DNA of 64,000 nucleotides from Adenophora triphylla var. japonica (lineage: Eukaryota > Streptophyta > Magnoliopsida > Asterales > Campanulaceae): positions 204,001 to 268,000 of the forward strand of contig JAFEMH010002094.1 in the NCBI GenBank assembly GCA_022495995.1. Reading direction: 5' to 3'. The notes beneath the pieces were generated by a model that saw only the letters and a program-made list of their open reading frames with translations, was not told the DNA's origin and did no database searches. Made by a program: the position numbers and the translations under genes. Position 1 is the stretch's first letter. Every line of letters begins with the position of its first letter. This document shows positions 4,107-51,397 of the stretch, one piece after another.

Positions 4107-5501
4107 TGAAATTACCCGGATCCGAGAGGCTCGCGCCCCGGCATCTGGCATCTTTCGCGTTGGAACGGTTTAGTCTCGCCGTTTGTTTTCGCATTTGTAG
4201 AGTCGCCACGCCGTTTTTATTAAGCCCAAAACATTGAAAAAGGGCATCAGTTTAAAGATAAATTTAAACTGTTTTTGTGTGATGAGATTTTGAGTTCGGA
4301 GGTCAGATGACTCCTCGGGAAGAGAATACTAGAATATTAGAGCTCACCCGAGTCGCCTCGTAAAATGAGTCTTTCGGATACCCCTAATATCCTTTAAATG
4401 TTGTGTGTGTGTGTGTGTGCTTTTTAAAAATGCATGCTGTATCGGATGTCTACATTGTATGCTATGTATGGAAATGTATTGAAATAGTGTAGGAAGGAAG
4501 CCTTACCAATGTTGGTTCGCGTCTGTCTTCCGCTGGGGAATAGTGTTTGAGGTCGGAGTAGCGTTTCGGTATGGATCTGGATTGCTTCGGGAGGGGCCGG
4601 TTGTCTGCGGACAGAGTTTCGGCGTGAGTTGATGTTGCAGGCTGCGTTCGGGCAGAGGTTCGGCGTGCGTGGGGATCGTCGGGATCACTCGGGCAGAGGT
4701 TCGGCGTGCGTTGTGGTGGCAGGAGTCACTCGGGCAGAGTTTCGGCGTGGTTTGGAATCGTCGGTTTGACTCGGAAAGAGCCGGGACACCGTGGAAAGAC
4801 TAGGCAAGGCCTCGGAGTACCACGAGGGGCCTCAGAGTACCTCGAGAGTGCCTCGGGGCAGCGCGGGAGCGTCGCGGGAGCGCTCGGGGAGGCTTCGGAG
4901 CACCACGAGGGGGCTCGGAAGGCCTCGGAAGGATCCGAAAGGGGCCGGGAATGCCTCGGAAGGACTTAGAGGGGAAGCCAGAAGGCCTAGGGAGGAAGAG
5001 AGAAGTGGGAGGTGTGTGAAAATGAGGAGGGGGAGCCCTATTTATAGTGCCAGATTTGGTGCAAAGAGGTCCGTACGGACCTCCCCGGTAATCCGAGACT
5101 TTTGGTTTTCCTCGATTTGAGGGAATGCGTGATGATGGAGGAATATTTGCAATTATGATGTTCCCTGTGCAATAAGGTTCGTACGGACCAAGTTGACATG
5201 CAAAGAGGTCCGTACGGACCAACTCTGCGAGGGTAATCATTTTCCCGAGATTTGAGGGAATATTGTGGACTTTAAGAGGATTCGGTAATTATTAGAGCAA
5301 AGAGGTCCGTACGGACCATTATTGCTTTTCTAATTTCTGAAAATTCCCAAAAGGTCCTTTTGTCCCTTTTTATCCCGCAGAAAGGCTCCTCCCTTGGTTT
5401 CTTTGGGGGTTTTGAGAGGGTTTTGAGTGCCAGGGGTCGTCGAGACTGTGTTGATGAGTCTGCGATGTTTCCCGTGTGTGATCCAGATTGGGGTACTTAC
5501 A
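4107..5501 (-). repeat. 3' LTR of element 1
   Basis: Matches 19667-21068 over its full length with scattered substitutions and small indels. In element sense U3 begins at 5501 (TGTAAGTACCCC). Four palindromes and a CTATAAATA TATA box at 5047-5039 mark the promoter. A (GT)n tract lies near 4400. Confidence 0.9.
5068..5317. promoter_or_regulatory. Four GGTCCGTACGGACC palindromes in the left LTR U3
   Basis: Copies at 5068-5081, 5176-5189 (one mismatch, GGTT), 5207-5220 and 5304-5317. Most are preceded by GCAAAGA. In element sense all four lie upstream of the TATA box at 5047-5039, the nearest 20 bp away. The 14-mer is its own reverse complement, as expected of a site for a dimeric DNA-binding protein. 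Function is inferred. Confidence 0.7.
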
Positions 5502-5514
5502 GAAGCCCCTCGAC
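5502..5514 (-). other. Polypurine tract region of element 1
   Basis: Minus strand reads GTCGAGGGGCTTC directly before the 3' LTR start TGTAAG. Element 2 has the near-identical CCGAGGGGCTAC at the same place. Such tracts prime plus-strand DNA synthesis. Confidence 0.7.
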
Positions 5515-5577
5515 GACGTCACTTATGAAAGAAGTGGGGTCGCCGATAAGATAAGGGTCCTAACTGGATCGCGTCTT

Positions 5578-6048
5578 TGGGAGATAATGTGACCGGGAGG
5601 TCGGTGAGGACGTGGTGGTGTCCTATCTTGTGTGACCGTTTAGGCCGCAAGAGGCCGGGACCCCGTGATAGGATTCCTACGTATCCCTGGCGGAAATCAA
5701 GCCTGGTCGTAGTTCAGAGTGTGGGGTGAGTGTTTTGTGAATGCGGGCGTGGTGGTGCCCTGAAGTGTCGTGTGACCACCGAGGTCAGTGGTAAGGACGT
5801 GGTGGTGTCCTGGGTGACCGCATAGGTCGATGGCCGGACCCCGTGATAGGATTCCTACGTATCCCTCGGCGGGAATCAAGCCCGGTCGTAGTTCGAGGTC
5901 GTGAAATCGTGAGTGCGGGCGTGGTGGTGCCCTGAAGTGTTGTGTGACCGCCGAGGTCAGTGGTAAGGACGTGGTGGTGTCCTGAAATGTGGTGACCGCC
6001 GAGGTCAATTGTGAGGACGTGGTGGTGTCCTGGGATGGAAATTTTACG
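5578..6048. repeat. Degenerate tandem repeat in the element 1 3' region
   Basis: Irregular repeats around GAGGTCAGTGGTAAGGACG and GTGGTGGTGTCCTG recur from about 5587 to 6035, mixed with two copies of a CCCGTGATAGGATTCCTACG block. No coding capacity is apparent. Confidence 0.75.
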
Positions 6049-7382: not shown

Positions 7383-7428
7383 GGTCCGTACGGACCAACC
7401 TCCGGCCGCAAAGAGGTCCGTACGGACC
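7383..7428. promoter_or_regulatory. Two GGTCCGTACGGACC palindromes upstream of gene A
   Basis: Perfect copies at 7383-7396 and 7415-7428, each preceded by GCAAAGA as in the LTRs. A TATA-like TTTAAATG lies near 7467 and the gene A ATG at 7582. The motif and its place before a TATA-like box repeat the LTR arrangement. Regulatory role is inferred. Confidence 0.65.
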
Positions 7429-7581
7429 AAGTTGGTTTTTTACAGCTCCTGTGTTTTGACCGGGTTTAAATGCCGAGCCCTTCCCCATTCCTTCTTCTTC
7501 CGTGCGTGAATCCGAGAGAGAGAGGAGAGAAAACCTCCATTGTTAACCAAAATCCTCCATTTTTCGCTTGAATCGCTTGCA

Positions 7582-10571
7582 ATGGCGGAAGGATCTCGAA
7601 GGAGTCGTCGACAACGCAGCCAAGAAGTGGTCGAGCAACGGATGGAGCTCCAAAGAAATTGGATTTCGCTTGTTCCATCTTCGAAGAACCCGGATGTCTT
7701 GTATCCGAATCCGGAGGTGCACAATCGTCGCTCTATGAACGTCTGGGAGGTAAGAAATCCGCTCCGTTTTGATTCCCTCGTCGAATTTTTGAATGCTAGA
7801 ACTAGGTTTTAGTTTTTCGCATTTTTGAATTTTTGTTATTTTTTTATGCCTTTTGTGAAATTCTTGATGAATTGTTGAAAATGGACATGTAAAAATTGTG
7901 GGTATGTGTATTTTGTGCGTAAATGTGTAGATTAGCTTTTATTTGTGAAAATAAAGTGCCTCTCTAATGAAATGCATGCTTTGGTGTTTTGTACCGTATG
8001 CTATTTATGTATGTACATTATGAGAAAAGTTTGTCGTGTAGTGACAATTTTTGTGAAAAATGTGACATGTGCCGTGTTTTGTGACGGGTTTTGTCTCGAA
8101 AGTGTGTGCCGTGTAGGGACGGATTTTTGAAAATGTGTTATGCATATGTGTCGTGCCGTGTGTTCCATGTTTTTGGGTGACGGACTTTGTGGGGAAAATA
8201 TGTGCAATATGTGCCGTGTTTTTGTGACGGGTTATATGGGCCTTTGCCGTGTTGGGACGGACTTTTTGAAAATGTGTCGTGTAGGACTTAATCCCTTTTT
8301 GAGAAAATGTGTACAAGTGTGCCGTGTTTTTGTGACGGATCGCATGGGAAAAATTATATGTATAATGTATGTGAAAATTATGTGCAATGTGTGCCGTGTT
8401 TTGTGACGGGATATATGTGAAAAATATGTGCAATGTGTGCCGTGTTTTGTGACGGGTTATTTTTCATGGCTTTCCGTGTTGGGACGGACTTTTGTGCCTT
8501 TTGTTTTATATTAAGTACTCGTGATTGACGTACCTTTGCCGTGTTTACCTCGCAGGATGCGGGGCTTATGGCCGGGAAGGCCAAGAGGATGAAGACTCTG
8601 GGATCGCTCGAGGCCGTTGTTGAGCCGTGGCAATGATGCCCGATATTTCCGTGGATGGTAGGCCGAGTCCCGTGAGGCCGGTCTACGCTTCCGGCCTCGG
8701 GGTGTTCGTAGAGAACCCGGCCGGAGTTTCGATACGAGGAAGAACAAGAGCGTCTTCCTTGGCCTTTCCGAGTATTGGTGGGATACCACCCACACCTTCC
8801 ATCCGAGCCGGGGAGAGGTGACGGTGACGCCGACCGACTTTGCCGCGATCACGGCTTTCCTTCAAAGGAGGGCCGCACGGTGGAGAGATATGATCTCCGA
8901 TGTTGTGTTGACCGAGCCGCCGGGCTTTGAGCCTCGTCCTCGCAGGGGCCTGGGCATGTCAGATAGCGATGTGGAGCCGAGGATCACGGCCAGCATTGGG
9001 GCCTATGTTCGGGTACCGGCCAGGTGACGGCGGAGCAGCTGGCGCGCTCCTTTTTGTGGTATGCACTCTCCGAGACCTTGTTCTCGAACCATGCGATCGC
9101 GGCTCCCTTTGCTCGTTGGAGAGCTTGATTGATCCGGGATAGGGTCTCGTGATATTGCTTGGGGCGAGGCAGTGCTTGGCCGAGCTCTACTTCTCTTTGG
9201 ACCGGTTTAGCCTGGTGTGGCGCGCTCATTGGCCTGCTTTTGACTTTGCTTTGGAGGTATGAGTTTATTGCCGTTTTTGATTTAGCAACTTGTCGTTTCT
9301 CCGTTTTCTTTTGCACCGAGCCTTCTCTCGTTTTTGTCACAGTGTGGTTCTATGAGGTTTTTCGTTGTTTCCCGTGGGATAGAGATCCTGGGCCGTTGCC
9401 GCGCACTCGCTATGCCGGGCCGGGCTCGTACGGCGAGGAAGAGGAGGACCAGCCAGGGGGAAGCTCACCATCGCCTACGGGGATGTGCAGGAGCCGTCCT
9501 GGAGAGGGGTAGCCCTGAGGGGTTCGTTTTGTTCCCGTGGGCTCGGTATGAGGGTGATGAGTTCGAGGGGGCTCCCGAGGTGACAGCGCAATGAAGATGC
9601 CGCGGGGCTCGACTCGCGATGTTATGTATCCTGGGAGCGGGTCTTCCGGGCAAAGATGGCCCCTGTGTGCTTCCCGTGGCTCCGAGGGACCCTCCTTTGG
9701 GATGCTTGATTCCCTGGACATGGATGTGCTTGACTTTGAGAGGTACCTCGCGGTGTGGGCGCCGAGGAGTTCATCTTGTATGGAGAGGAGTACGGGGCCT
9801 TCGTGAGGAGGAAGCCGAGGACGCCGCAGTACCGGCGAGGGAGAGAGAGGCCGGCCCGCAGCTCCCCTGCAGGTTCCGATGCCGGGCCGGATTTCACGTA
9901 TGTCCGGGGGACGGATCGAGGAGGAGGGTGTCTCGTACTCGTTTCGAGCAGGTGCCCCCGCCGCATACCGAGTGGATCCCGATAGATCGGTGAGTGTGCT
10001 TACTCTTTTCCATCTTGGCATCTTTTCTCGTATTTTTCTTTTTGTTGTCGAGTATAACCGTATTGCCGAGCGTTTCCTTGGGTCGCTTGTTGGTGCAGTC
10101 CCGGGAGAGCCTATGATATGCCGACTCGCCGTTATGTGGCGATGAGGTCGTTTGCGAAGAAGATGGCGTCGAAGATATCTTGCCGGGTTCGCGACGCGTG
10201 CCGGCGCACGAGCCTATGCCTTCGAGGCATTCTCAGACGTTCCTCCGCCTAGAGCCGAGCCGGAGCCGCAGCAGGAGGGACCTTCGAGGGGGCGGCATAG
10301 TATGGATGCCGAGACGTCTTCAGGAGCTCCGGGGCAGCAGCCCTTTTATCAGTTCTTCCCTCCTCAGGATGCACAGGGCGAGGGTCCGTCAGAGCCTTCT
10401 TTCTTTGATCCTTTCGCCGGATTTGATCCTTCGGATTACTTTGAGTGGCAGCCTCCGGCGGGGGCTCGGTACTCTGATGACGAGGATGTGGCGGGCGAGT
10501 TCACAGGGATGCCCGACTTCTCTCTGGAGGACCTCGGCGAGGATGATGATGATGCTCAAGAGTCGGATTAG
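7582..10571 (+). pseudogene. Antisense gene A of element 1: plant mobile domain (PMD) protein, broken
   Basis: Exon 1 is 7582-7749 (56 codons, Arg-rich: MAEGSRRSRRQRSQEVVEQR at the start), followed by donor GGTAAGAAAT. The acceptor CTCGCAG ends at 8555. Exon 2 matches gene A of element 2 (KRMKTLGS; VTPTDFAAITAFLQRR; LARSFLWYALSETLF near 9040-9085). Intron 2 is about 9257-9342, and exon 3 begins with VWFYEVFRC. Intron 3 is about 9990-10098. The last exon ends in an acidic tail at 10571 (SLEDLGEDDDDAQESD). The PMD fold is shared by MAIN/MAIL1-type plant proteins and is known in some Ty3/gypsy elements; its molecular role is unresolved. Stops and frame changes in exons 2-3 make this a pseudogene. 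It runs opposite to gag-pol, between integrase and 3' LTR. Confidence 0.75.
8010..8500 (+). repeat. Tandem-like repeats inside intron 1 of gene A (element 1)
   Basis: TGCCGTGTTTTGTGACGGG and related GTTGGGACGGACTTTTTG units recur about eight times, mixed with ATGTGCAATGTG. Intron 1 of gene A in element 2 has analogous GGGACGGAGTTTTT repeats. Confidence 0.7.
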
Positions 10572-10908: not shown

Positions 10909-10953
10909 GGTCCGTACGGACATACCTAGCATGCAAAGAGGTCCGTACGGACC
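10909..10953. promoter_or_regulatory. Two palindromes upstream of gene B (element 1)
   Basis: GGTCCGTACGGACA at 10909-10922 (last base differs) and a perfect GGTCCGTACGGACC at 10940-10953, in the same GCAAAGA context as in the LTRs. A TATA-like GATAAATG lies near 10975, and the gene B ATG is at 11073. Confidence 0.65.
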
Positions 10954-11072: not shown

Positions 11073-12583
11073 ATGGATTCTTCGTACGTCCCTAGAATTT
11101 TGCCGAGGCTTTCGCAGAGAGGCAAGCACACTTCCTTGAGCAGCTTGAAAACGTGGATGCGGCGCCGTATGAGGCATCGTAGACGGGCTTTCGAGGTAAG
11201 GTTTCGTCTTTGCTCGATTTGGTCTTTTAAGGAGTTGGTTCCCGATTGGGATTTGTTATGGCCGCCGCGAAGTTCGGGATGTTAGGAGGCATGTGTACCG
11301 TTTCTCCTATAATGAAATGGTGCCCACTTTTGAGGATTTTCGGGCTTTGATGGGGGACCGGAGGTGGAGGCCATCTCGCTTCCTTTGATTGGTGGTGCCG
11401 CGCGAGCGTGAAGCTTGCAGTGCTTTCTTCGTACTTCGTTGGAAGAAGTGCAGTGGCATGATCCTTGATTCGGGTCATATCGACATTTCCGAGCCGCCGG
11501 AGCGGTTCATGGTTGATGATGAGAGTGACGTCTCTTGGGATGCATTCGCCTTGTGCACGATAGCGACGCTCTTCATGGTCGCCTCCTTGGCATTTGCGAT
11601 GGCGCTTTGCTAGATGTGGTAGGGCACCGCAGAGCCGGAGAGGATATTGTCCCGTTGGTGCCGGGGGAGACTCTTCATGGTATCGACCGTCCGGCGACCG
11701 GGGATCGTTTCATGAGAGGGGGAAGCCCCGCTTTGCTCACCTTGTGGCCGCGAGAGAGACTTCAGCCATGCCCGAGGCTCCGACGTCGTTTAGCCCGTGG
11801 TCATTTGCTCGCCGACCTCTTGTATGGATATGGATCACCCGCCCGGGAGAGATGGATGGCACAGCCTTGGTACGCATCGATCCGCCGGTGGGTTCCGCAC
11901 CGGAGGATTGAGACTAGGAGGATCTGCAGAGGGGTCCTACGTTGTCGAGTTCCAGGTTTGTCTTGGTCCTCCTTCTATATTCCGTCGCTTGTTTCCTGCA
12001 GCTTGGGATGAAGCAGAGCCTTTGTTGGGCCGGGATGACCTTGCTATCGCGGAGGTAGTTCCTCTTTGTATGGCGCCTTCAGTGCCTTCTTGTATTTTCT
12101 CGAGGGTATGGAAGTATTCCGCTTTCCCTCCCGCGGTACTCCTTAGACGTCTGGGAGCGTCGTATTGACGACTCGCACTCCGGCCCGGTATGAGCAACAG
12201 AGTCAAGGCAGTCCCAAGTGGTCTTGGAGAGCAGGCGTGTAGCGATTCTGGGACCCGCTGCCGTAGTAGCTATTGCCTTAGGAGTGCCGAAGCCTGGTCC
12301 GACCCTTCGATGTGACGGAGACACTTTGTTTGACTACGAGACTAGAGTTGACCGACCGACAGGAGAGGTCCTCTTTGCACTCGCAGGAGGAGATCCGAGC
12401 CGAAGCACGGCGAATGAAGCCCCGAGAGCTACCGGATTGTTTGACTCTACGGGGAGGACCCCGATCTCTGACCGAGAGACGCAGAGTTGGTTCACGTGGA
12501 GCGAAAGAAGACTCGCCGTGGACGAGGGAAGAAAGGAAAGAATGGCGAGGGACAAGCGCAGACGGCGCGGAATGACCTCCTAG
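11073..12583 (+). pseudogene. Antisense gene B of element 1: DUF7745/PMD-like protein, frameshifted
   Basis: The ATG sits in GCCATGGAT. Matches to gene B of element 2, in several frames: IWSFKELVPDWDLL near 11215-11260, YNEMVPTFEDFRALMG near 11310-11355, DISEPPERFMVDD then WDAFALC and ATLFMV near 11480-11580, SLLDVVGHRRAGEDIVPLVP near 11605-11670, and RFMRGGSPALLTLWPRERL near 11705-11765. At least four frame changes separate these blocks. The C-terminal part is basic and rich in Arg and Glu. No introns are seen. The family name is a recollection of PMD-related DUFs in plant retroelements and is not certain; the relationship to element 2 gene B is clear. Confidence 0.68.
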
Positions 12584-19664: not shown

Positions 19665-19666
19665 AC

Positions 19667-21068
19667 CGAAATTACCCGATCCGAGTAGGCTTCGCGCCCA
19701 AGCATCCGGCATCTTTCGTGTTGGAGCGGTGTCTCGCCGTTTTGTTTTCGCATTTTGTAGAGTCGCCACGCCGTTTTTATTAAGCCCAAAACATTGAAAA
19801 GGGCATCGCTTAAAGATAATTTTAAACTCGTTTTTGTGTGATGAGATTTTGAGTTCGGAGGTCGATGACTCCTCGGGAAGAGAATATTAGAATATTAGAG
19901 CTCACCCGAGTCGCCTCGTAAACGAGTCTTTCGGATACCCCTAATATCCTTTAAATGTTGTGTGTGTGTGTGTGTGCTTTTTAAAAATGCATGTCAGATC
20001 GGATGTCTACATTGTATGCTATGTATGGAAATGTATTGAAATAGTGTAGGAAGGAAACCTTACCAATGTTGGTTCGTGTCCTCTTCCGCCGGGGAATAGT
20101 GTTTGAGGTCGGAGTAGCGTTGGTACGGATCGGGATTGCTTCGGAGATGCCGGTTGTCCGCGGACGCAGTTTCGGCGTGAGTTGAGGTTGCGAGGCTGCG
20201 TTCGGGCGGAGGTTCGGCGTGCGTGGGGATCGTCGGGATCACTCGGGCGAGAGGTTCGGCGTGCATTGTGGTGGCGGGAGTCACTCGGGCGCAGTTTCGG
20301 CGTGGTTTGGGATCGCCGGTTTGACTCGGAAGAGCCGGACACCGTGGAAAGACCGAGCAAGGCCTCGGAGTACCACGAGGGGCCTCAGAGTACCTCGAGA
20401 GTGCCTCGGGACGGCGCGGGAGCGTCTCGGGAGCGCTCGGGGAGGCTTCTGAGCACCACGAGGGGCTCGGAAGGCCTCGGAAGGATCCGAAAGGGGCCGG
20501 GAATGCCTCGGAAGGACTTAGAGGGGAAGCCAGAAGGCCTAGGGAGGAAGAGAGAAGTGGGAGGTGTGTGAAAATGAGGAGGGGGAGCCCTCTATTTATA
20601 GTGCCAGATTAGGTGCAAAGAGGTCCGTACGGACCTCCCTGGTAATCCAGTATTTTGGTTTTCCTCGATTTGAGGGAATCTGTGATGATGGTGAATATTC
20701 TGTAATTATGGTGTCCCCTGAGCAATAAGGTCCGTACGGACCATCTTGCATGCAAAGAGGTCCGTACGGACCAACTAAGCATGAGGGTAATCATTTTCCC
20801 CGGGATTTGAGGGAATATTGTGGACTTTAAGAAGATTCAGTAATTATTAAAGCAAAGAGGTCCGTACGGACCATTATTGCTTTTCCAATTTCCTGAAAAT
20901 TCCCAAAAGGTCCTTTTGTCCCTTTTTATCCCAGAAAGGCTGCTCCCTTGGTTTGGCTGAGGGTTTAGAGAGGGTTTTGAGTGAGAGGGGTCGTCGAGAC
21001 TGCGTTTGATGAGTCTGCGGTGCTTCCCGTGTGCTTGAAAGGGGGTGATCCAGATTGGGGTACTTACA
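19667..21068 (-). repeat. 5' LTR of element 1
   Basis: Pairs with 4107-5501. Contains the same CTATTTATAG box (20593-20602) and ends GGGTACTTACA at 21068. The first base is C instead of T. Confidence 0.9.
20622..20872. promoter_or_regulatory. Four GGTCCGTACGGACC palindromes in the right LTR U3
   Basis: Perfect copies at 20622-20635, 20729-20742, 20759-20772 and 20859-20872. The copy matching the left LTR's mismatched site is intact here. All lie upstream of the TATA-like box in element sense. Confidence 0.7.
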
Positions 21069-21968
21069 CTTACTCAATATATTTAGAACTTACCTTGCCC
21101 AAGGGGACAAAGGTCTTCTATTTTAGGCAATGAAGAGGTGCTTGTTGATGTAAGCAATGAGATCAGCCCTATGAGGCACTTTGGTATTTGACCGCCTACA
21201 CGTGTTCGCAGCTAATTGGCCCTGTCAGGGAGGGAACATTGACTGTAAAGGGGACATGGCTGAAAGGGACATGAGCCGTGTATATGACTTGGCGCATTAA
21301 ATGAAATAGTAGGCGCCTGACTGAGCCGCATTAAATGCGTGATGGGGGAGCCGGGAACATGCATGTCAGAGCCAGTGACCTAACGTGCTCAGTAAGGCTT
21401 GACATTAACCGGGAGGCAGGTGAGATAACCGGGAGGCAGGTATGAGCCCGCGGTCAACATCTTGGGCGCGGTCAAAGATATTTAACGCGGGCACGGATGG
21501 AGCGGTCATACCCCCTGCGGGCACAGATCTAGTGGTCATACCTCCTGCGGGCACCAATCTAGCGGTCAGGATCCCTCCGGTCTTGGATTAGGAGGATGTG
21601 GAGAAGAGCGCGGTCTTGACCTCAAGGATCTCTCTGTCCGCGGTCTTGACTCCAGCGGTCTAGGAAATGCCACTTCACAGGTTCCTTGGACCAAATCGAG
21701 CGTGGACCCGATCCAGCAGGTTCGGGCTCATCAATTTGAATAAGGGTTGCCGAGCCTGTCTTTCCAACTAGCTCTACCCCAGTCACTGGGCAATAATCGG
21801 CCCGATAGTTCTTCGACATATTCCGGCTTAAGATTCTAATTTCAAAATGACTAATGATAAATAGTATTTTAGATAATTTTGTCCTTATAATCCTAATCCT
21901 GTTATAATTACCAATTAAAAAAAAACAGAATCCAACAAAACTTACTTTATATCCAATTGTATTAAATA
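21069..21968. other. Unassigned DNA with short GCGGTCATACC repeats
   Basis: Outside the LTR of element 1. Units of about 33 bp around CTGCGGGCACAGATCTAGTG and GCGGTCATACC recur at 21470-21580. No coding domain, terminal repeat or PBS was recognised. It may be the end of another retroelement. Confidence 0.5.
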
Positions 21969-25140: not shown

Positions 25141-25175
25141 TTTACACCAATTGGGACAGTGCCATCCTGCAAGAA

Positions 25176-25690: not shown

Positions 25691-25730
25691 TGTATAGCGT
25701 CCAATACCTAGGAGAGCCAATGCCTTCAAG

Positions 25731-27274: not shown

Positions 27275-27299
27275 GTCTTCGTGTTTCCAGTCAAAACAA

Positions 27300-30126: not shown

Positions 30127-31883
30127 TGTGATGATGTGCCACCAAAATTTCCCGGGGAAAAATTCGATTTTTGCGTTTCTTTGAAAAACCAAATAAAACC
30201 CGGAAAAAGAACGGAGTCGCCACGCCATTTTTGTTTTAAGGGCCAAAACTTTGAAAAATTCCCGAGATTAGAGATTTGGGTTCGGAGGTCATGTTACATG
30301 CCGGGAAGGACGTTAGTGTGCACCCGGAATGCCTCGTAAAACGAGTCTTCCAAGCTGAAAATCATTTGTGTGTGTGTGTGTGTGTGTGTTTTGGCCAAAA
30401 TAAGTTGAAACTCAGAAAAGTAAAAATTGGGATGTCTTTTTAAGACTTTAAACTGATCCCATGATTTTTTGGAAGATTTTTGGATTGAGATTTGGTACTC
30501 AAAAGACCTTTTAAAGTTGAGAGTCACTTCTGCCAGAATGAAAAAGGCAGTGGACCTTTGATTTTGAAATGGATTCAAGGGTCTTAAAACTTCATAATAT
30601 GGATAAACTCAGAGAATGAAAGTTGTTCCAGACACCTTAAATAAGATTTGTGCTAAGAAATTTTCCATTTTGGATAAGATTTGAGGGGTCAAAACCTTCT
30701 GGAAATCTCAGATATGAGATCTGGATTCCCAGAAGCTGATGAACTGGCCTCTAAAAGAAAATTTGAAAAGAGGAGTTTTACTCACCCAAAAAATAAAGTA
30801 CAAATATGTCTGGAAATCTCTGGATGTTGGATACAAAAAGTGTTTTGTAGTAAACACCAAATTCCAAGTTTATCTGTGTCCAAAAATTAAGACAATGGAC
30901 TGGGGTCTTGGAAAATTGCTACTGGACAGCAACTTCTCAAGAAAGAAAATATGATTTAAAAGGGGGTTTTTGCATCCATGCTTGTCCCAATTTCCCTAGG
31001 TTTTGGTTAGTGATCACTTGACATTTTAGTGGTGAATCAACTATACCAAACCATCCTTGGGGTACATTAGGACTAAGCACTTAAGTCATTTGCTTGGGAA
31101 GGGGAATTTTTTCCTTTGAAAATGAGATTTGATGCTTGAAAATGGTTTTTAGGGTTTTGAAAATGCATTTGCAAGTAAGTAAGAACACATTGAAGAAAAT
31201 GTTGATCCTTGTAGAAGATCATCCATGGAGATGAACTTCCATGGTGATCTTCTTGGATCTAAGACAAGAAGAAGAATGAACTACATTTTGTAGTTTGAAA
31301 ATGCATGCATGGATGAGAGATTTAGGGTAAGAAGAGGGAGGTTATACCTATCTTCTTTGGTTTTTTCTTGGTGTTTAAAGGCTTGAATGCAAGAGTGTTT
31401 GAACTTGGGAGTGAGTGGGTGTGATTTGAGTGAGTGAAAGTTGGGAAGATTCAAGAGAAAAAGGTGACAATTCTTAGGGAATTCTCACTGTTTTCTCAAG
31501 TATTTTTGCCAAATGCTGTGAGTTGTGTTCTTGGTCCTCCTCATTTTTGTGACTGGAGGGCTCAATTTATAGCCCTCTGAATTTTACAATCCTATCCGCG
31601 CGGATAAACCTGCGGCGTGCCTTTGTTCATTGAATCTTTGCTCCGTGCTTTGGACACAAGGAATAATCTTTTTAAAATTCAAATTAATCAGCCAGTTTTT
31701 GTTTCCAGCCATTTCTTTTTTTGGTTTTTCTTATTTCTTTTGCTTTTTTTATTCATTTCCTTGGTTTATCTTTTTTTTGGCAATCCCTAATCTACCCTTA
31801 CTTGGTTAGAAATGTTAGGAATGTTATAACTTTCGTTAATTTTCTAAAGAAAATTCTAACAAGCTCAAATTGGAGCACTTACA
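30127..31883 (-). repeat. Internal LTR2 of element 2
   Basis: Full-length LTR preceded by CTTAG (30122-30126) and followed by a second copy of the 434-bp PPT spacer. Its left end (CCAAAATTTCCCGGGG) and the AAGTCATTTG insertion match LTR3 and not the outer LTRs. Confidence 0.9.
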
Positions 31884-32318
31884 GTAGCCCCTCGGCGACG
31901 GCGCTTTCGAAGGAAGCGGGGTCGTCGATAAGAGTAAGGCTCCATATTTGGCGGGATGATCGAGTGATCGGGTGGCTGAACCTATTTAATAGGCTACCTA
32001 CGTATCCCGAATGGGAATCAAGCCAGTCGTAGTTCGGGTCTTCGACCCTGGAGATGATGGCGTTTTAGGTGCCTCGAACCTCGATGAGCGAGTTCTGCAG
32101 TCGGTTGCTGGAGAGAAACTCTGCTGGGGATAAGAGATGACCATTTTCGGTCGGAGGGCTATCCGCTCTGCTGGGGATAGGAATGACCCTTTTCGGTCTG
32201 ATGGCTATCCGCTATGCTGGGGATAGGAATGACCCTTTTCGGTTTGATGGCTATCCACTCTGCTGGGGGATGATTGTGATTTATCGCTTTCCTAGTGTTG
32301 TGTGTGATAGCGTCTTAG
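31884..32318. repeat. Second copy of the PPT-proximal spacer
   Basis: Duplicates 29693-30126 with a few substitutions and again ends in CTTAG. LTR plus spacer forms a tandem unit of about 2.19 kb (27930-30126, 30127-32318). Confidence 0.9.
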
Positions 32319-34094
32319 TGTGATGATGTGCCACCAAAATTTCCAGGGGAAAAATTCGATTTTTGCGTTTCTTTGAAAAATCAAATAAAACCCGGAAAAA
32401 GAACGGAGTCGCCACGCCATTTTTGTTTTAAGGGCCAAAACTTTGAAAAATGCCCGAGATTAGAGATTTGGGTTCGGAGGTCATGTTACACGCCGGGAAG
32501 GACGTTAGTGTGCACCCGGAATGCCTCGTAAAACGAGTCTTCCAAGCTGAAAATCATTTGTGTGTGTGTGTGTGTGTGTGTTTTGGCCAAAATATGTTGA
32601 AACTCAGAAAAGTAAAAATTGGGATGTCTTTTTAAGACTTTAAACTGATTCCATGATTTTTTGGAAGATTTTTGGATTGAGATTTGGTACTCAAAAGACC
32701 TTTTAAAGTTGAGAGTCACTTCTGCCAGAATGAAAAAGGCAGTGGACCTTTGATTTTGAAATGGATTCAAGGGTCTTAAAACTTCATAATATGGATAAAC
32801 TCAGAGAATGAAAGTTGTTCCAGACACCTTAAATAAGATTTGTGATAAGAAATTTTCCATTTTGGATAAGATTTGAGGGGTCAAAACCTTCTGGAAATCT
32901 CAGATATGAGATCTGGATTCCCAGAAGCTGATGAACTGGTCTCTAAAAGAAAATTTGAAAAGAGGAGTTTTACTCACCCAAAAAATAAAGTAAAAATATG
33001 TTTGGAAATCTCTAGATGTTGGCTACAAAAAGTGTTTTGTAGTAAACACCAAATTCTAAGTTTATCTGTGTCCAAAAATTAAGACAATGGACTGGGGTCT
33101 TGGAAAATTGCTACTGGACAGCAACTTCTCAAGAAAGAAAATATGATTTAAAAGGGGGTTTTTGCATCCATGCTTGTCCCCATTTCCCTAGGTTTTGGTT
33201 AGTGATCACTTGACATTTTAGTGGTGAATCAACTATACCAAACCATCCTTGGGGTACATTAGGACTAAGCACTTAAGTCATTTGCTTGGGAAGGGGAATT
33301 TTATCCTTTGAAAATGAGATTTGATGCTTGAAAATGGTTTTTAGGGTTTTGAAAATGCATTTGCAAGTAATTAAGAACACATTGAATAAAATGTTGATCC
33401 TTGTAGAAGATCATCCATGGAGATGAACTTCCATGGTGATCTTCTTGGATCTAAGACAAGAAGAAGAATGAACTACATTTTGTAGTTTGAAAATGCATGC
33501 ATGGATGAGAGATTTAGGGTAAGAAGAGGGAGGTTATACCTATCTTCTTTGGTTTTTTCTTGGTGTTTAAAGGCTTGAATGCAAGAGTGTTTGAACTTGG
33601 GAGTGAGTGGGTGTGATTTGAGTGAGTGAAAGTTGGGAAGATTCAAGAGAAAAAGGTGACAATTCTTAGGGAATTCTCACTGTTTTCTCAAGTATTTTCG
33701 CCAAATGCTGTGAGTTGTGTTCTTGGTCCTCTTCTATTTTTGTGACTGGAGGGCTCAATTTATAGCCCTCTGAATTTTACAATCCCATCTGCGCGGATAG
33801 GACCTGCAGCATGCACTGTTCATTAAATGCTTCTCCAGGCTTTGGACACAAGGAATAATCTTTTTTAAAATTCAAATTAACCAGCCAGATTTTGTTTCCA
33901 GCCATTTCTTTTTTTGGTTTTTCTTATTTCTTTTGCTTTTTGAGATTCCTTTGAAGGTTTATCTTTAAATAGCAATGCCCATTTTGCCCTCACTTTGTTA
34001 GAAATGTTAGGAATGTTAGGAATTGTTAGAAATGTTATAACTTTCGTTAATTTTCTAACGAAAATTCTAACAAGCTCAAATTGGAGCACTTACA
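32319..34094 (-). repeat. Internal LTR3 of element 2
   Basis: Full-length LTR flanked by CTTAG on both sides (32314-32318 and 34095-34099), the mark of an LTR insertion into the 3' region of element 2. No PPT follows; the host minisatellite GGTGCCTCGAAC resumes directly. Confidence 0.9.
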
Positions 34095-35406: not shown

Positions 35407-35416
35407 TCCGCGCGGA
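35407..35416. promoter_or_regulatory. TCCGCGCGGA palindrome upstream of gene A (element 2)
   Basis: Context ACAATCCTGTCCGCGCGGA, matching the LTR context ACAATCCTATCCGCGCGGA in all but one base. It lies 171 bp before the gene A ATG at 35588. Confidence 0.65.
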
Positions 35417-35587: not shown

Positions 35588-38500
35588 ATGGAACACGGGG
35601 AAGGTGTTTTTCAAGGCCAAGGACGTGGCCCGGTAGCGGAGAGACGATTGGAGCTCGTCCGAATGAGGAGACATTATACTCTTTCGCAATCGATTGCGGA
35701 GGAGCCATACCCCGATGCTTGGCAACATTGGGCCACCGATCCGAGTCTCCGAACGGTATTCTTCGAATCCTTTTGATTCCTTTGTCGATTCTTGCTTGGA
35801 ATTGGATTTTGGGTGATTTTTGATTTTTTTTTTTGAAAATTCGAATGATTGATGTTCTTGGCTTTGAATCTTGATTTTGATGCTTTGCATGTTGTAATGA
35901 GTATATGGGTATCCTAAAATATGCATTTTGCTTGGAAAAGGAATTGGCATTTTCGCCATTTTTTTTTTTGTAAATTCGAAAATTGTGATTTTTCTTTTTG
36001 AAATTTGAATATTGATCTTGATGATATGCATGTTGCAATGAATTTGTTGGTGTTTCAAAATGTACATTTTGCTTGAGAAAAGAATTGGCATTTTGCCAAC
36101 ATGAGATGATGATATGAATGTATGATTTTTTTTTTTGAAAAATGGGACGGATTTTTCCTCCCGTGATTGAATGCATGTTATTTTATGAAAACGGGACGGA
36201 GTTTTTGCTTCCGTTGACTCCTTGTGTGAATGTATGAATGTAGGATCTTTTTTTTTTTTGAAATGACGGATGATATGCATGTTATGAATGCACTTTTTTT
36301 TTTTTTTTGAGAGTGTGATTTTCTATGAAAAGTGGGACGGATTTTTCGTTCCCCTTTGATTGAATGAATGACTTGAGAGATTGTTTATGTATGCTATTTC
36401 ATGAAAGATGGGACGGAGTTTTTTGCTCCCGCTGAACGAATGTATGCATGTTTTTTTTTTTTATAGAAAATGGGACGGAGTTTTTACTTCCGTAGGAATG
36501 CATGTAGAATTTTTTTGAGTGATATGCATGTATGCATGTTGGTTGGGATTTGCTGAAAACTGCTTCTTTTTTTTTTTTTTGAGAAAAATGGGGCTGGGTT
36601 CATTGTATGCCGTTATGCTGCCGAATTTTCTTCAAAACTTTTGTGTTGCATGATGCATGTATATGCTTTTCTTTTTTTTTTTGTGCAAATGCAAATGCAA
36701 AATTTTTTTTTGACATTTTCTCTCTCTTTTTTTTTATTGCAGGGCGGAAACAACTACGTTACGGAGCAGCTGAACAAGATGAAAACTCGAGGATCGGTGG
36801 AGTCTGTAGTTGACTTGTGGGACCGGCTTCCGAATGCGGGCCGAGGAGCTTTGCCGAGTCCGAGACAGATTGTTGTTGAGACCGGGCTTTGGGAGTTCAT
36901 TGAGTGCCTGAGGGGATTGGTCAAGTTCCCTAAGAGCAAGGGCCTGATGTTTGCTTTGGCGCAGCACTGGTGGGATGCGACCCACACGTTTCACTTCTTC
37001 TGGGGCGAGGCTACGGTTACGCCTTCTGATTACGCCGCGATCACGGGTTTGTCCTTCAATGGACGCAGCATTGAGTGGCGGGATGGCTACAGCGATGCGG
37101 ATCTGCAGGCTCTTCTGGGATTTTCCCCTATTCCCAAAAAGGGGATGGGGATGGAGTATGCCGTGGTCTACGGGAAGATTGTGGAGACCATTGTGAGCTA
37201 CGAGGTGGGGAGGAGAGGATAGGCGCCGAAGCGATGCCGGGGCCTTCTTATGGTTTGCTTTTCGAGCACCCTTTTTGGACATCTTTGAGGGACGGCAGTC
37301 TTTGCCTTCTTGAGGTCCTTGGAGGACATGGAGATGGTGGAGACGTCTCCTGGGGAGAAGCCGGTGGCGAGCTTTACTTTGCTCTTGATAGGTACAGCCG
37401 GAAGGCCGCGAGCTCCCTATCTTGCTTTGAGTTTGCCACAGGTATAAGCTCTCTCTTTGATTTCCCTTTTTTCTTGAGCACACACTTTTCTTTTGCTGGA
37501 TTGATTTGATTTTTACCTTTCGCAGTATGGGCGTTGGAGTTTTTCCACGTCACGATGTGGCGACGGCCGGCGGAGTACGTCGGGCGTATCCGGCCATGCG
37601 CTCTGGTCCAAGCATGCCCGAGAGAAGATAAGCTCCAGGGGGCGTACGACTCTCGTGATACGCGGATTGCCTTCCTTTGATGGAGGCCGAGATGGATGAG
37701 AGATGATATTCTATCCACAGGATCGTTTTGAGGTGGCGCAGTGAAGGGCGCAGAGATTTGGACCGTGGCAATGGAGGATTCCGAGAGGTCCGACTGCGAT
37801 GCCTATTATCCGGGAGAGAGGGTGACGCGCCAGCATGGCGTGAATTCGCCTTTGATGACACCGGTGGAGCCTCCCGCCGATATGATGCATCCGAGTGACA
37901 GATCTACGACTGGGATGATTACCGAGCCGGCCAGCACTTCTCGACATTTGTGGCGACTGAGCCGTACCCCGTATTTGTTTTGAGGAGGCTGAGGATGCCC
38001 CAGGTTCTGGATAGAGAGGGTTAGGGGTCCCGCGGTACCCTCGGATGGATTTTTCATATGTCCAGGATGGGGTCCGATTGAGGGTGCAGATCCCTCAGCC
38101 TGAGCGGCTTTCACGAGCTTTCCGGCCTCGTCCAGGTATGAAGGTATGGATTCTCCTTCCCACCTTTCTTTTTTTTGCTTTAGTCTTTTCTTTTCTTTCC
38201 TGTCATCATTTTTCGCTTCAATTGTTTCTGACGCTTTTGCTTTTGTGCAGTTTTCGGAGGTGGTCGTCGAGAAGCTGACGAAGCAAGTGATCGGAGCTAA
38301 GAGATTTATCAGGAGGATTGTCGCTTGCGGGGCTCCTCAGGCTAGAGCGAGGCGACCACGGCCGGCGCACTGTCGGGCGGGAGGCTTCCCTATTCGTTCG
38401 TAGACTTCTTCGAGACTCCTCTGTCTCCTCTCATTGATCCCAGCGCGGTGCGCCTTCGGATCACGTCATTCTCGAGGATCCACACGGGCGGGGACACATT

Positions 38501-38720
38501 TGGCGGCATGGTGGGTCGTCTTCGTACGTCCGTGAATCCGACGCCTTCACCTTCGGATATGATTTTTCGCAGATCTTGGCTTGCCCCTATCAGAGCGTGC
38601 CGGTTGGTCCCGACGAGCCTCTTTTCGGGAGACGAGGACGATTATGAGCCCGAGATCTTCGGGGCTCTGAGGAGGCGGGCCCGAGTCGCAAGAGGGACCG
38701 GGGACGGCGTCGGGCGCTAG
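35588..38720 (+). pseudogene. Antisense gene A of element 2: four-exon plant mobile domain protein
   Basis: Exon 1, 35588-35755, is 168 nt (56 codons), the same as in element 1. Intron 1 is about 35756-36742. Exon 2 carries the PMD core: NYVTEQLNKMKTRGSVESVV, WEFIECLRGLVKF, HWWDATHTFHFFWGEATVTP, DYAAITGLSFNGRSIEWRDG, LLGFSP. Intron 2 is about 37442-37525, and exon 3 starts with WALEFFHVTMWRRPAEYVGR. Intron 3 is about 38136-38250. The last exon ends at 38720 with an acidic/basic tail (DEDDYEPEIFGALRRRARVA). Frame changes after 37220 and within exon 3 break it. PMD proteins of the MAIN/MAIL1 group act in nuclear gene and TE silencing; a similar role here is only a guess. Confidence 0.8.
36120..36500 (+). 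repeat. GGGACGGAGTTTTT repeats in intron 1 of gene A (element 2)
   Basis: ATGGGACGGATTTTT or ATGGGACGGAGTTTTT followed by a CTCCCG or CTTCCG stretch and GAATGCATG recur near 36142, 36191, 36333, 36410 and 36471. They parallel the GGGACGGACTTTTT units in intron 1 of element 1's gene A. Confidence 0.7.
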
Positions 38721-39030
38721 GGATTCTGATTGATTTCTCTTTTTTAGGCTGTTTTTACGAGATTGAGATTTGTGATTGGGATTGAGATTTGTACGGCTTA
38801 TGCACATTTTTTTTTTCTTTTTTTTTTTTTTGATGTAATAATTTAGGATTATTGTTACCTACTTTTTTTTTTTTTTTTGATTTGATTTTTTTGTACACTC
38901 CCTTTATTTTTGGAATGTAATAATTTAAGATTTTATTTTTATGAATGCAATGCGGTATGAATGCAATGTTGCATGAGCCTTGGTTTTTTGGCAAGGGTTT
39001 TTAGTGTTTGGTATATGGACCGGTCTGGGG

Positions 39031-39065
<35 letters not shown>

Positions 39066-39149: not shown

Positions 39150-39159
39150 TCCGCGCGGA
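39150..39159. promoter_or_regulatory. TCCGCGCGGA palindrome upstream of gene B (element 2)
   Basis: Context GACAATCATGTCCGCGCGGA. It lies 126 bp before the gene B ATG at 39285. Same core and left context as before gene A and in the LTRs. Confidence 0.65.
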
Positions 39160-39284: not shown

Positions 39285-40789
39285 ATGGAAAACCTTAGAA
39301 AAGCTCCATCAAAATTGTCCCAAGAATCCCAAATGTCATTCTTCAACAAATTCAAGGATTGGTCCCGGGAGATTATGCATGAGAGGAGGTCCTTCTTTGA
39401 AGAAAGGTATAAAGTGAAGTGCTTATGGTCTCTCAAGGAGTTGATTCCGGACTACGATCTCTCGAGAGCTTCTTCCTCATTTTGGGATACTAGAAGGCAT
39501 GTCTTTTGCCTTTCCTTCAACGAGATTGTTCCGACCGTGGAAGAATTTCGGGCCTTGCTTGGTGGTCCGGAGGTGGAAGAGATAGCGGTTCCTTTGCCCG
39601 GAGGGGCTTCTTTTGTTGACAGATTGTGCAACCTCCTTCATCTCTCCCCGGAGGAAGCGCAAGGTATGATCTGTGGTCCCGATCATTTTGATATTTCCGG
39701 TCTCCCTGATAGGTTTAGGGACTTAGGCTTGCTTGACAATGCCTATTGGGATGCCTTTGCACTTTGCATGTTCGGGACCTTGTTCATGGTCTATTCTTTT
39801 GGGATCTGTCATCGGTCTCTGCTGGATGTAGTCATTCATTGTCGCTTGGGCAGAGATGTTGTACCTTTGATCTTGGGGGAGACTTTCCATGCTCTCGATA
39901 GGCTGGCTACTGGGAGGCGGTATATGCACGGGGGCAGCCCGTTCCTCTTGACTCTGTGGCTGATGGAGCGCTTGGGGATTCTTCGGGAGACTCCTGATAT
40001 GATCAAGCCTTGGACATTTGCCAGGAGGGGGGTTGCTGTAGATTTTGATGATCAGGGCTCATGGGAGCGTTGGATGGCTGATCGCCGGACAGAAGATATC
40101 GATGGTCGGTGCCTTGTTGGCGGGTGGAGACTCGCACAGTGCTTCAGGACGGGTCTCATGTGGTCATGCTTCCGGGGCTTTCTCAGTCCAGCTTCTATAT
40201 TCCGTCCTTGGTTCTGAGACAGTTCGGCTTGGAGCAGGTTCCTTTGGAGGATTTTGATGATATAGCCACCAGGGTGGTGGCTTCTGCTTCTATGGATGAT
40301 CCTTCGGTGTTTTCCTTTCTTTCCCGAGCATGGAGGTATGACGTCTTTCCTCCTCGGGTTATCCTCAGGCGTCCGAGACCGGTGTTCTTGACCACTTGGT
40401 ACCTGGATTGGTACGAGAGGCATTTGGGAGAGACTCAGATGGCTATTTTGAGACGGCGTGAGGCCATTGTGGGTGCGGAGGACCTGACAGTTTCCGAGAG
40501 GAGGAGGGCCGAGGCGAGGGCCAACCCTCATGACAGGAGCGGAGACGCTGTGACCGACTATGAGGCTTACGTCAAGAGGCAGGAGAGGAGGGCTCCTACT
40601 TTACCAGCCCGGCTACAGGAGATGAGAGATAACGCTAGGGCTACTAAGGCCCTGACAGAGGCTGGTTTGATAGATCCTGTTCCTATACCAGAGCTTGGTA
40701 GGAGGAAGACCGACATTTTTCCTGTTCAGAAGAAGAAAACTCGAAGGGGGAAGAAGAGGGGAGAGGCCAGTACGAGTGGCTTGGAGTGA
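39285..40789 (+). pseudogene. Antisense gene B of element 2: DUF7745/PMD-like protein, one frame change from intact
   Basis: Intronless, about 500 codons, ATG in TCCATGGAA. The N-terminal domain includes CLWSLKELIPDYDLSRASSS, WDTRRHVFCLSFNEIVPTVE, FRALLGGPEVEEIAVPLPGG, then YWDAFALCMFGTLFMVYSFG, SLLDVVIHCRLGRDVVPLIL and YMHGGSPFLLTLWLMERLG. A single frame change near 40108-40130 links it to the rest (LPGLSQSSFYIPSLVL, WYLDWYERHLGETQMAILRR). It finishes with a Lys/Arg-rich tail (KKKTRRGKKRGEASTSGLE) like a nuclear localisation signal, ending at 40789. Function unknown. The LKELIP...FNEIVPTVEEFRALLG pattern is typical of PMD-related DUFs next to plant retroelements. The near-intact state suggests selection until recently. 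Confidence 0.75.
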
Positions 40790-49610: not shown

Positions 49611-49630
49611 TATCCCCAGCAGAGTCGCCA
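49611..49630 (-). other. Primer-binding site of element 2
   Basis: Minus strand reads TGGCGACTCTGCTGGGGATA, one base from the LTR edge at 49632, and matches the element 1 site in 16 of the first 18 bases. Confidence 0.8.
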
Positions 49631-49631
49631 C

Positions 49632-51397
49632 TGTGATGATGTGCCACCATTTCTCGGGAAAAAATTCCGATTTTTTTGCGTTTCTTTGAAAAAACCAAAT
49701 AAAACCCGGAAAAAAAACGGAGTCGTCACGCCATTTTTGTTTTAAGGGCCAAAACTTTGAAAAATGCCCGAGATTAGATATTTGGGTTCGGAGGTCATGT
49801 TACACGCCGGGAAGGACGTTAGTGTGCACCCGGAATGCCTCGTAAAACGAGTCTTCCAAGCTGAAAATCATTTGTGTGTGTGTGTGTGTGTGTATTTTGG
49901 CCAAAATAAGTTGAAACTAAGAAAAGTAAAAATTGGGATATCTTTTTAAGACTTTAAACTAATCCCATGATTTTTTGGAAGATTTTTGAATTGAGATTTG
50001 GTACTCAAAAGACCTTTTGAAGTTGAGAGTCACTTCTGCCAGAGTGAAAAAGGCAGTGGATCTTTGATTTTGAAATGGATTCAAGGGCCTTAAAACTTCA
50101 TAATCTGGATAAACTCAGAGAATGAAAGTTGTTCCAGACACCTTAAATAAGATTTGTGCAAGGAATTTTCCATTTTGGAGAAGATTTGAGGGGTGAAAGC
50201 CTTCTGGAAATCTCAGATATGAGATCTGGATTCCCAGAAGCTGATGAACTGGCCTCTAAAAGAAAATTTGAAAAGAGGAGTTTTACTCACCCAAAAAATA
50301 AAGTAAAAATATGTCTGGAAAGCTCTGGATGTTAAATACAAAAAGTATTTTGTAGTCAATACCAAATTCCAAGTTTATCTGTGTCCAAAAATTAAGACAA
50401 TGGACTGGGGTCTTGGAAAATTGCTACTGGACAGCAACTTCTCAAGAAAGAAAATATGATTTTAAAGGGGGTTTTTGCATCCATGCTTGTCCCCATTTCC
50501 CTAGGTTTTGGTTAGTGATCACTTGACATTTTAGTGGTGAATCAACTATACCAAACCATCTTTGGGGTACATTAGGACTAAGCACTTCATTTGCTTGGGA
50601 AGGGGAATTTTATCCTTTGAAATCAAGATTTGGTGCTTGAAAATGGTTTTTAGGGTTTTGGAAAATGTGTTTTCTTTGGAAAAGAAGTAAGAACACTTTG
50701 AAGAAAATGTTGATCCTTGTAGAAGATCATCCATGGAGATGAACTTCCATGGTGATCTTCTTGGATCTAAGACAAGAAGAAGAATGAACTACATTTTGTA
50801 GCTTGAAAATGTATGCATGGAATGAGAGAATTTAGGGTAAGGAGAGGGAGGTTATACCTATCTTCCTTATTTTTTTGGTGTTTAAAGGCTTGAATGCAAG
50901 AGTGTTTGAACTTGGGAGTGAGTGGGTGTGATTTGAGTGAGTGAAAGTTGGGAAGATTCAAGAGAAAAAGGTGACAATTCTTAGGGAATTCTCACTGTTT
51001 TCTCAAGTATTTTCGCCAAATGCTGTGAGTTGTGTTCTTGGTCCTCCTCATTTTTGTGACTGGAGGGCTCAATTTATAGCCCTCTGAATTTTACAATCCT
51101 ATCCGCGCGGATAAACCCTGCAGCGTGCACTGTTCATTAAATGCTGCTCCAGGCTTTGGACACAAGGAATAATCTTTTTAAAATTCAAATTAATCAGCCA
51201 GTTTTTGTTTCCAGCCATTTCTTTTTTTGGTTTTTCTTATTTCTTTTGCTTTTTTGATTTCTTTCCTTGGTTTATCTTTTTTTGGCAATCCCTAATCTAC
51301 CCTTACTTGGTTAGAAATGTTAGGAATGTTAGGAATGTTATAACTTTCGTTAATTTTCTAACGAAAATTCTAACAAGCTCAAATTGGAGCACTTACA
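49632..51397 (-). repeat. 5' LTR of element 2 (right outer LTR)
   Basis: Very close to LTR1 along its length, including the TTCTCGGGAAAAAATTCC start. Palindrome at 51100-51113 and CTATAAAT box near 51078. Ends CACTTACA, followed by the target duplication CCTTG (51398-51402). Confidence 0.94.

Follow-up and report, generated by a model that had tools for sequence, protein, structure and literature searches.

A bipartite palindromic site common to the LTR and antisense gene promoters of two giant plant retrotransposon lineages

A single cis-element is common to the LTR sense promoter and to the promoters that drive antisense genes A and B in two lineages of giant Tat/Ogre-like Ty3/gypsy elements, represented by E1 and E2, which lie within a 64-kb stretch of Adenophora triphylla DNA (the window). 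Since one of its halves, a CA, is one-sided, the site is not a simple symmetric palindrome but a bipartite sequence, CA-N6-TCCG-NN-CGGA. The core is conserved in the genome copies sampled, and its central dinucleotide differs between the two lineages; with the site at all three promoters, this suggests that the elements steer their own transcription by a lineage-private recognition code.

Results

Two elements with antisense PMD genes

E1 reads on the minus strand: a 3' LTR at 4107–5501, its ends read from the sequence, pairs with a 5' LTR at 19667–21070 (92.4% identity, 4108–5478 vs 19668–21033). E2 has the same orientation, with a 5' LTR at 49632–51397 (97.3% identity to 27930–29692) and a 3' LTR that is a tandem array of three copies (27927–34094, minus strand; copies at 27926–29692, 30122–31883 and 32314–34094) with spacers of ~430 bp and the TSD CCTTG. 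Genes A and B run antisense to gag-pol, itself on the minus strand, and lie between pol and the 3' LTR, the layout of Retand and Grande.

By domain and similarity scores, both genes can be assigned to the plant mobile domain (PMD) group. E2 gene A (35589–38720, plus strand, with introns) matches PF10536 at 45.7 bits (cut-off 34.9), a cut-off also exceeded by its relative P0004; E1 gene A (7582–10571, plus strand, with introns and frameshifts) is similar to both, and scores 27.4 bits within 8662–9024, under the same cut-off. The predicted exon 1 is at 35589–35755 in E2 and 7582–7749 in E1, with exon 2 from 36743 and 8556, respectively; the gene ends are likewise predictions. E2 gene B (39285–40789, plus strand), of the DUF7745/PMD group, has a frame change near 40100 and a basic C-terminus; it reaches 22.8 bits against PF24924, under the cut-off of 26, and its relative P0001 lies above both the PMD and DUF7745 cut-offs. 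The frameshifted E1 gene B (11073–12583, plus strand, putative limits) was placed by tblastn similarity to E2 gene B. A search for solved structures of a relative gave one chance-level match (E 0.41), an AlphaFold2 model of P0001 built on five alignment rows had a mean pLDDT of 32, and no encoded relatives were found on the viral contigs searched. Gene B is under purifying selection: median dN/dS is 0.09–0.25 by dS bin among 27 uninterrupted copies, and 73 of the 86 matches scored are free of internal stops.

A PMD extra ORF is a trait of Tat/Ogre elements, and PF10536 scores above its cut-off in E2 gene A, P0001 and P0004. A relative, L065, has a second RNase H (aRH), with RVT_1, RT_RNaseH and RVT_3 in that order; neither RT nor RNase H was detected in E1 and E2 of the window with domains from a neighbour as queries. 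A putative PBS, TGGCGACTC..., read from the sequence, adjoins both 5' LTRs; the Ogre PBS is described, in the accessible part of the source, as complementary to tRNA-Arg (PMC9289625).

The site in the window

The core TCCGYRCGGA occurs exactly 16 times in the window, against a mean of 0.14 in 100 shuffles, none of which reached 16. All 16 sites are in LTR U3 or closely upstream of genes A and B, which confirms the proposal of the initial annotation that this core marks the LTR and both genes in the two families. That annotation gave four sites to each E1 LTR; this holds for the right LTR (20624, 20731, 20761 and 20861, spanning 20624–20870), but the left (5070, 5178, 5209 and 5306, spanning 5070–5315) has three exact sites and one with a mismatch, at 5178. 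The pairs it placed ahead of E1 gene A (7385 and 7417, 32 bp apart; 7385–7426, plus strand) and gene B (10911 and 10942, 31 bp apart; 10911–10951, plus strand) are both present, although a palindrome at 10910 described as 14 bp measures 12 bp. Stretches of ~45–72 bp around the sites are common to the E1 LTR, A and B promoters. In E2 the three exact LTR sites already known (TCCGCGCGGA at 29406–29415, and the sites at 31595–31604 and, in the 5' LTR, 51102–51111) are joined by a one-mismatch site, TCTGCGCGGA at 33788–33797, in the remaining LTR copy. One site lies ahead of E2 gene A (35407–35416, plus strand) and one ahead of gene B (39150–39159, plus strand).

A CA at −8/−7 from the core accompanies all 16 exact sites as well as the one-mismatch sites at 5178 and 33788, which were admitted partly for having it; the exact sites are the cleaner evidence. 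The same CA is found at 132 of 135 sites in the protein-reached genome samples described below and, in addition, at 8/8 E1 LTR sites. This one-sided CA, 8 bp off the core, is a new addition to the earlier description. All window sites have one orientation relative to the element and lie in the direction of the genomic RNA's 3' end. The CA keeps one element strand and not one transcription direction, which a simple homodimer would not predict. Allowing any centre adds a seventeenth exact core, TCCGGACGGA at 18986, in the interval between the E1 5' LTR and gag.

TATA-like boxes, sought permissively and only beside each site, lie 27–33 bp from the sites in most sets, at all three promoters and on both strands – again a new observation. 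The E1 LTR box (TATTTATAG on the plus strand, 5039–5047, assigned to the minus strand and read from the sequence) and that of the E2 5' LTR (ATTTATAG, 51072–51079) each lie ~31 bp from the centre of the closest site; E1 gene B has ATAAAT at 10975. The earlier restriction of such boxes in E2 to the LTRs was too strict, TTTTAAT at 35437 being 28 bp, and CTTTAAT at 39183 ~31 bp, from the site centres of genes A and B, respectively; both boxes were read from the sequence, and their distances agree with those in relatives. E1 gene A departs from uniform spacing: its box, TTTAAAT at 7465, is ~46 bp from the nearer site centre.

Copies in the host genome

For the main counts, genome copies were sampled by protein match and not by the site itself. 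The site was found upstream of 28/30 E2-type and 20/20 E1-type copies of gene B (the other two E2-type copies lack it), and upstream of 19/20 E2-type copies of gene A, the exception being L064. Among E1-type copies of gene A it is present in 13/16; one of the other three is degenerate, and two, L111 and L114, retain the gene A flanks with the site interval deleted. Three E1 copies (L044, L111 and L114) that have lost the gene A promoter keep their gene B sites, which indicates that A is not needed in cis. E2-type LTRs carry the site in 16/19 windows, that is, in 16/16 of those in which the site region is covered (three lack the region or an LTR match), as do both E1-type LTRs in view. Sites are single or paired, and the pair spacing of ~31 bp, exact in 17/20 E1-type gene B copies, corresponds to three helical turns.

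Equal density of the palindrome elsewhere in the elements, which would have told against the initial proposal, was not seen in the parts covered: L065 has no exact TCCGNNCGGA across its 9-kb gag-to-RNase H stretch, and two exact cores were met away from promoters, that at 18986 and a TA core at −688 of the E2-type locus L035, neither with the CA half. Genome-wide, CAWNNNNNTCCGNNCGGA has 57,079 + 57,042 matches and its reversed counterpart 499 + 572; sites with CA on both sides are counted twice.

Conservation of the core

CpGs in silenced elements usually decay. In the protein-picked copies the core and its CpGs are conserved above the flanking sequence: for E1-type gene B, 395/400 core positions match vs 5878/6388 in the flanks (CpG 79/80 vs 183/256), and for E2-type gene A, with the siteless L064 left out, 187/190 vs 10292/11576 (CpG 55/57 vs 627/742). 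Fisher values for these contrasts, and for the one that follows, overstate significance, related copies (L012 and L013 are nearly identical) being taken as independent. Copies L042–L044 of E1 give 219/220 vs 2325/2488, a biased figure, since they were chosen by the site, and not part of the main evidence. Upstream of gene B the site window is only seventh in conservation among 405 ten-base windows; those that outrank it include 38912 and 38966–38970, and a flanking CpG at 39264 is likewise kept in 29/29 copies (L027 left out).

Core centre and lineage

The centre is CG at 69/73 E2-type promoter sites and TA at none, and TA at 66/70 E1-type promoter sites and CG at none. Crossed centres thus number 0/143, and the motif variant segregates with lineage, a VANC-type trait seen here across two lineages. 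Rather than holding unrelated sequences at the LTR and ahead of the genes, protein-reached copies retain their lineage's own centre at the LTR, A and B sites alike. The claim that the palindromes changed together within each family stands insofar as many copies agree, but with only two centre classes the contrast represents a single event or few.

One apparent exception was traced to adjacent insertions. In C6768 a CG site stands ~3.3 kb upstream of an E1-type gene B, but a mosaic was rejected: an E2-type gene A there adjoins an inverted E1-type LTR with TA sites. A CG site in C4168 belongs to an inverted E2-type LTR. The C1 listing has TA and CG sites together in 4/14 site chains, which we tentatively read as neighbouring elements.

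Discussion

Co-regulation of the sense promoter with both antisense genes through common cis-control is well supported; as for the remainder of the earlier proposal, a dimeric and perhaps element-encoded regulator, an element-encoded PMD protein is the likely binder. We think it probable, on balance, that the bipartite site is bound by a factor that sets all three promoters, most likely the element's PMD protein, in a feedback loop. A sequence-specific, probably dimeric factor would bind the site and, once bound, would set the activity of the LTR, A and B promoters jointly. The factor would be an element-encoded PMD protein (A, B or both), or would be recruited by one; A and B would then activate their own genes and the genomic RNA, or release them from silencing, and the specificity of the loop would be private to each lineage.

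The main rival is a host transcription factor, the three promoters having acquired the same host-responsive box for expression in the same cells. Plant LTRs are commonly driven by host factors, the position and spacing of the sites are what one would expect of a conventional activator site, and a single host factor (an LBD/AS2-type protein, for example, or an SBP-type one for the TA centre) could fit the common outer TCCG..CGGA if it tolerated the centre. We nonetheless consider this explanation rather unlikely: the lineages hold different centres within one genome without crossing, which suggests two recognisers, and two PMD-group genes, gene B under measured constraint, are kept beside the sites. 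Far less probable is a role in RNA (packaging or dimerisation), or as a silencing target or insulator, in place of one in promoters. The common orientation of the window sites on the element, and their location on the 3' side of the genomic RNA, would suit such a role; the near-constant distance to TATA-like boxes at three promoters on both strands, the helical phase of site pairs and the lack of sites across the 9-kb gag-to-RNase H stretch speak against it. Least probable of all is a functionless by-product of descent or repeat homogenisation, for although promoter copies of common ancestry, and the common stretches of E1, are expected of duplicated units, the core and its CpGs exceed their flanks and the core is constant while site number per promoter varies.

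The reading in which a PMD protein of the element binds the site can be set beside known systems. Ogre elements with PMD extra ORFs resemble E1 and E2 as giant Tat-clade Ty3/gypsy elements bearing PMD genes, and PMD is present in 57% of Ogre elements (Neumann 2019, PMC6317226); the accessible portion of that paper describes neither a cis-element nor a function for these ORFs. For the antisense ORFs of Retand and Grande a regulatory, nuclear role has been proposed (PMC11963269, PMC7264820); palindromes and promoters are named, in the available text of PMC11963269, in its reference list only. Their common domain, Transposase_28 (PF04195), is absent from the scanned gene A/B pieces and relatives, in which broken frames were scanned piecewise. 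The VANDAL elements of Arabidopsis likewise have an element-private, family-specific short noncoding motif, and, according to the portions available, its binding by the element-encoded anti-silencing protein VANC is demonstrated (PMC5735166, PMC10398659). VANDAL is, however, a MULE DNA transposon with the motif in tandem repeats and introns, whereas E1 and E2 are LTR retrotransposons with PMD-group proteins, sites at TATA-like boxes and binding that is predicted only. A literature search on the two core sequences gave no transposon motif among the matches listed, judged by title and the start of the abstract.

As a tentative generalisation, which we place just short of an even chance, the PMD proteins of Gypsy elements could be sequence-specific regulators with lineage-private codes, making up an element-run trans-acting circuit, with a single recognition site common to the genomic promoter and both antisense genes, as the retrotransposon counterpart of VANC. 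The antisense ORFs of giant plant retrotransposons, and their PMD domain, have a function termed unknown or speculative in the consulted parts of published accounts (PMC11963269, PMC5418596, PMC6317226); a defined 18-bp site common to the LTR, A and B promoters opens the question to simple assays of binding and of reporter activity. Were the binder element-encoded, LTR retrotransposons would join VANDAL in using a private code by which regulation is confined to elements of the same kind. Such a code, if true, bears on escape from silencing and on the origin of the host PMD proteins MAIN and MAIL1. PMD-A clades are reported, in the part of the source available, to be exclusive to Gypsy elements (PMC5418596), and if PMD proteins are lineage-private regulators, this would be the first molecular function for those clades.

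A palindromic site at sense and antisense promoters

The core TCCGYRCGGA occurs 16 times in the window against 0.14 expected, and every occurrence lies either in the U3 region of an LTR or upstream of gene A or gene B of the two Tat/Ogre-like Ty3/gypsy elements E1 and E2. Allowing one mismatch adds sites at 5178 and 33788; all 18 carry CA at -8/-7, so that the full site reads CA-N6-TCCG-NN-CGGA, with a CA half and a two-base centre. One further exact TCCGNNCGGA core, TCCGGACGGA at 18986 in the E1 leader, has a different centre, is away from the three promoters and lacks the CA half.

Read from the sequence, the site centre precedes a TATA-like box by about 31 bp in the LTRs of both elements and at both gene B promoters, by about 28 bp at E2 gene A and by about 46 bp at E1 gene A; paired E1 sites are 30–32 bp apart. 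The CA half keeps a constant strand on the element in E1, E2 and related loci, being TATA-proximal in the LTR promoter and TATA-distal in A and B. A mirrored TTG half is also present at some E1 LTR sites. A separate cluster of several perfect palindromes, long ones of 26, 28 and 32 bp, lies at 62270–62548 and is apparently unconnected with E1 or E2.

Across the 2.48-Gb host assembly CAWNNNNNTCCGNNCGGA gave 57,079 + 57,042 matches, compared to 499 + 572 for the reversed pattern. Among the 100 matches listed, the first in the genome and all from a single contig, are 92 distinct palindromes with centre TA (51), CG (37) or CA (4); the commonest close spacings among these matches are 30 (13), 100 (7), 108 (6), 106 (4) and 32 (4). 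TA and CG centres occur together in 4 of their 14 site chains, at least 4 kb apart, and such mixed chains are read as putative neighboring elements.

Centers are specific to lineage

Related copies were picked by protein matches, so as not to select them by the site. The best 30 of 86 scored E2-type gene B copies include 28 with the site (34 sites, 31 exact; centre CG 32, TG 2; CA half 34/34). One of these loci, L035, has an additional exact TCCGNNCGGA core with a TA centre, 688 bp upstream of the gene B match, off the promoter and without CA. Many E2-type copies (alignment of L009–L038) also carry a second palindrome, GCAGCAGTTTAAACTGCTGC or a near variant, which precedes the gene B site by ~40 bp; in the window copy this second palindrome is degraded. 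Of 20 E2-type gene A copies, sampled at points down a ranking of 150 rows, 19 have a single site, 17 of these exact, with centre CG in 18 and CA in one. Among 19 windows upstream of the sampled E2-type A copies, 16 contain LTR sites (20 sites, 18 exact; CG 19, TG 1); no LTR match was obtained in L099 or L102, and L087 stops short of the site region.

Two sites precede gene B in all 20 E1-type copies sampled (out of 150 ranked rows, within the top two thirds), 38 of the 40 being exact, with centre TA in 37 and CA in three, a CA half in 37, and a pair spacing of 31 in 17 copies. Gene A flanks are present in 16 of 19 windows upstream of these copies, 13 of them with sites (TA 21/22); the misses are a degenerate remnant (L107) and two deleted intervals (L111, L114), and the windows lacking gene A flanks are an LTR (L117), an E2-type copy (L118) and an unmatched sequence (L122). 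In L044, L111 and L114 the gene A promoter is deleted and the gene B sites are kept. Only two E1-type LTRs were in view (L117, L125), with TA in 8/8 sites; of the remaining windows, L124 and L127 have no LTR match and L126 is an inverted E2-type LTR. Pooled over promoters, the centre is CG in 69 of 73 E2-type sites (TG 3, CA 1) and TA in 66 of 70 E1-type sites (CA 4).

Spacing to the TATA-like box is regular. Using a permissive pattern confined, for the A and B sets, to 20–70 bp beyond the site start, we found it at 30–33 bp in 27 of 28 E2-type B copies (52 in one), at 27–31 in 19 E2-type A copies and at 28–32 in 20 E1-type B copies; in E2-type LTRs it is 30–32 bp from a site centre (16/16), the same boxes coming out at 31–33 in a second count.

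The site is also conserved relative to its surroundings. At E1-type B promoters 395/400 site cells match the majority versus 5878/6388 in the flank, and 79/80 CpGs are kept versus 183/256. The corresponding values for the 19 E2-type A copies with a site are 187/190 versus 10,292/11,576 and 55/57 versus 627/742. In 29 E2-type B upstream regions, conservation of the three CpGs within the site is 27, 28 and 27, and that of eight further CpG positions runs from 15/29 to 29/29. Bases between CA and core are variable, except for the purine immediately before the core.

The elements and their antisense genes

The 64-kb window contains nested LTR retrotransposons, and these elements and their PMD genes point to plant DNA. 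The E1 LTRs (4108–5478 and 19668–21033) are 92.4% identical and the four E2 LTRs (27926–29692, 30122–31883, 32314–34094 and 49632–51397) 92.9–97.3%; the target duplication of E2 is CCTTG. Three E2 LTRs stand in tandem at its 3' end (27926–34094; the other at 49632–51397), separated by ~430-bp spacers with partial likeness to the adjacent internal region, as if through unequal recombination or a strand-transfer error. E2 itself interrupts the gag-pol of a further gypsy element; the two halves of that element (24300–27925 and 51398–52649) match a continuous stretch, 118–1868.

Genes A and B, located between pol and the 3' LTR, are antisense, since they lie on the plus strand and the gag-pol remnants of E1 and E2 on the minus strand. 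Protease and integrase of a neighboring element find matches in E1 and E2; because its RT and RNase H pieces, as queries, found nothing there better than E = 0.28, both elements look non-autonomous. A longer relative with CG sites, L065, shows in succession gag, G-patch (weakly matched, at 17.5 bits against a cut-off of 22), RT, RNase H and then another RNase H, the order typical of the Tat clade as given in the available text of PMC6317226.

Against the plant mobile domain (PMD, PF10536), E2 gene A scores 45.7 bits, a match, and the E1 gene A fragment 27.4 bits, below the cut-off. The gene B relative P0001 scores above both cut-offs (PMD 36.7 bits, DUF7745 31.3 bits); E2 gene B itself reaches 22.8 bits for DUF7745, below the cut-off of 26. 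E2 gene B is 61–63% identical to P0001–P0003, and E2 gene A 55% identical to its relative P0004. Searched against its own genome, P0001 gave 68,751 first-look candidates, and 73 of the 86 scored matches have no internal stop. Once three copies containing a stop had been removed from the 30 fetched gene B copies, the median dN/dS of the other 27 over rising dS bins was 0.25 (2 pairs), 0.17 (18), 0.17 (90), 0.12 (87), 0.10 (151) and 0.09 (3), which points to strong purifying selection in a sample composed of best matches. A similar lysine/arginine-rich tail ends the gene B products (40700–40786, 12500–12583, P0001 C-terminus) and is possibly a nuclear localization signal.

A candidate control loop

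Regular spacing from the TATA-like box, helically phased pairs, a conserved core and CA half, and the occurrence of the site at promoters on both strands favor, by a wide margin over other readings, a promoter element to which a protein would bind. That two lineages coexist with non-overlapping centers argues for two recognizers. The simplest candidates would be divergent PMD-group proteins carried by the elements, and the resulting loop could activate, de-silence or repress.

Published work, in the text available from each source, would lend an element-encoded PMD recognizer plausibility only. Gypsy elements are the sole carriers of PMD-A clades, PMD function is called undetermined, and anti-silencing is a speculation for MULE-captured PMDs (PMC5418596). 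VANC proteins bind family-specific motifs in their own transposons (PMC5735166), and in maize Grande the antisense gene comes with a promoter of its own and its product is nuclear (PMC7264820). Ogre elements are already known to carry PMD ORFs (PMC6317226), and Retand antisense ORFs (PMC11963269); the literature searched, including the available text of these two sources, yielded no cis-element common to LTR and antisense promoters. Control through a site common to both types of promoter is possibly of a new kind, in an otherwise known type of element.
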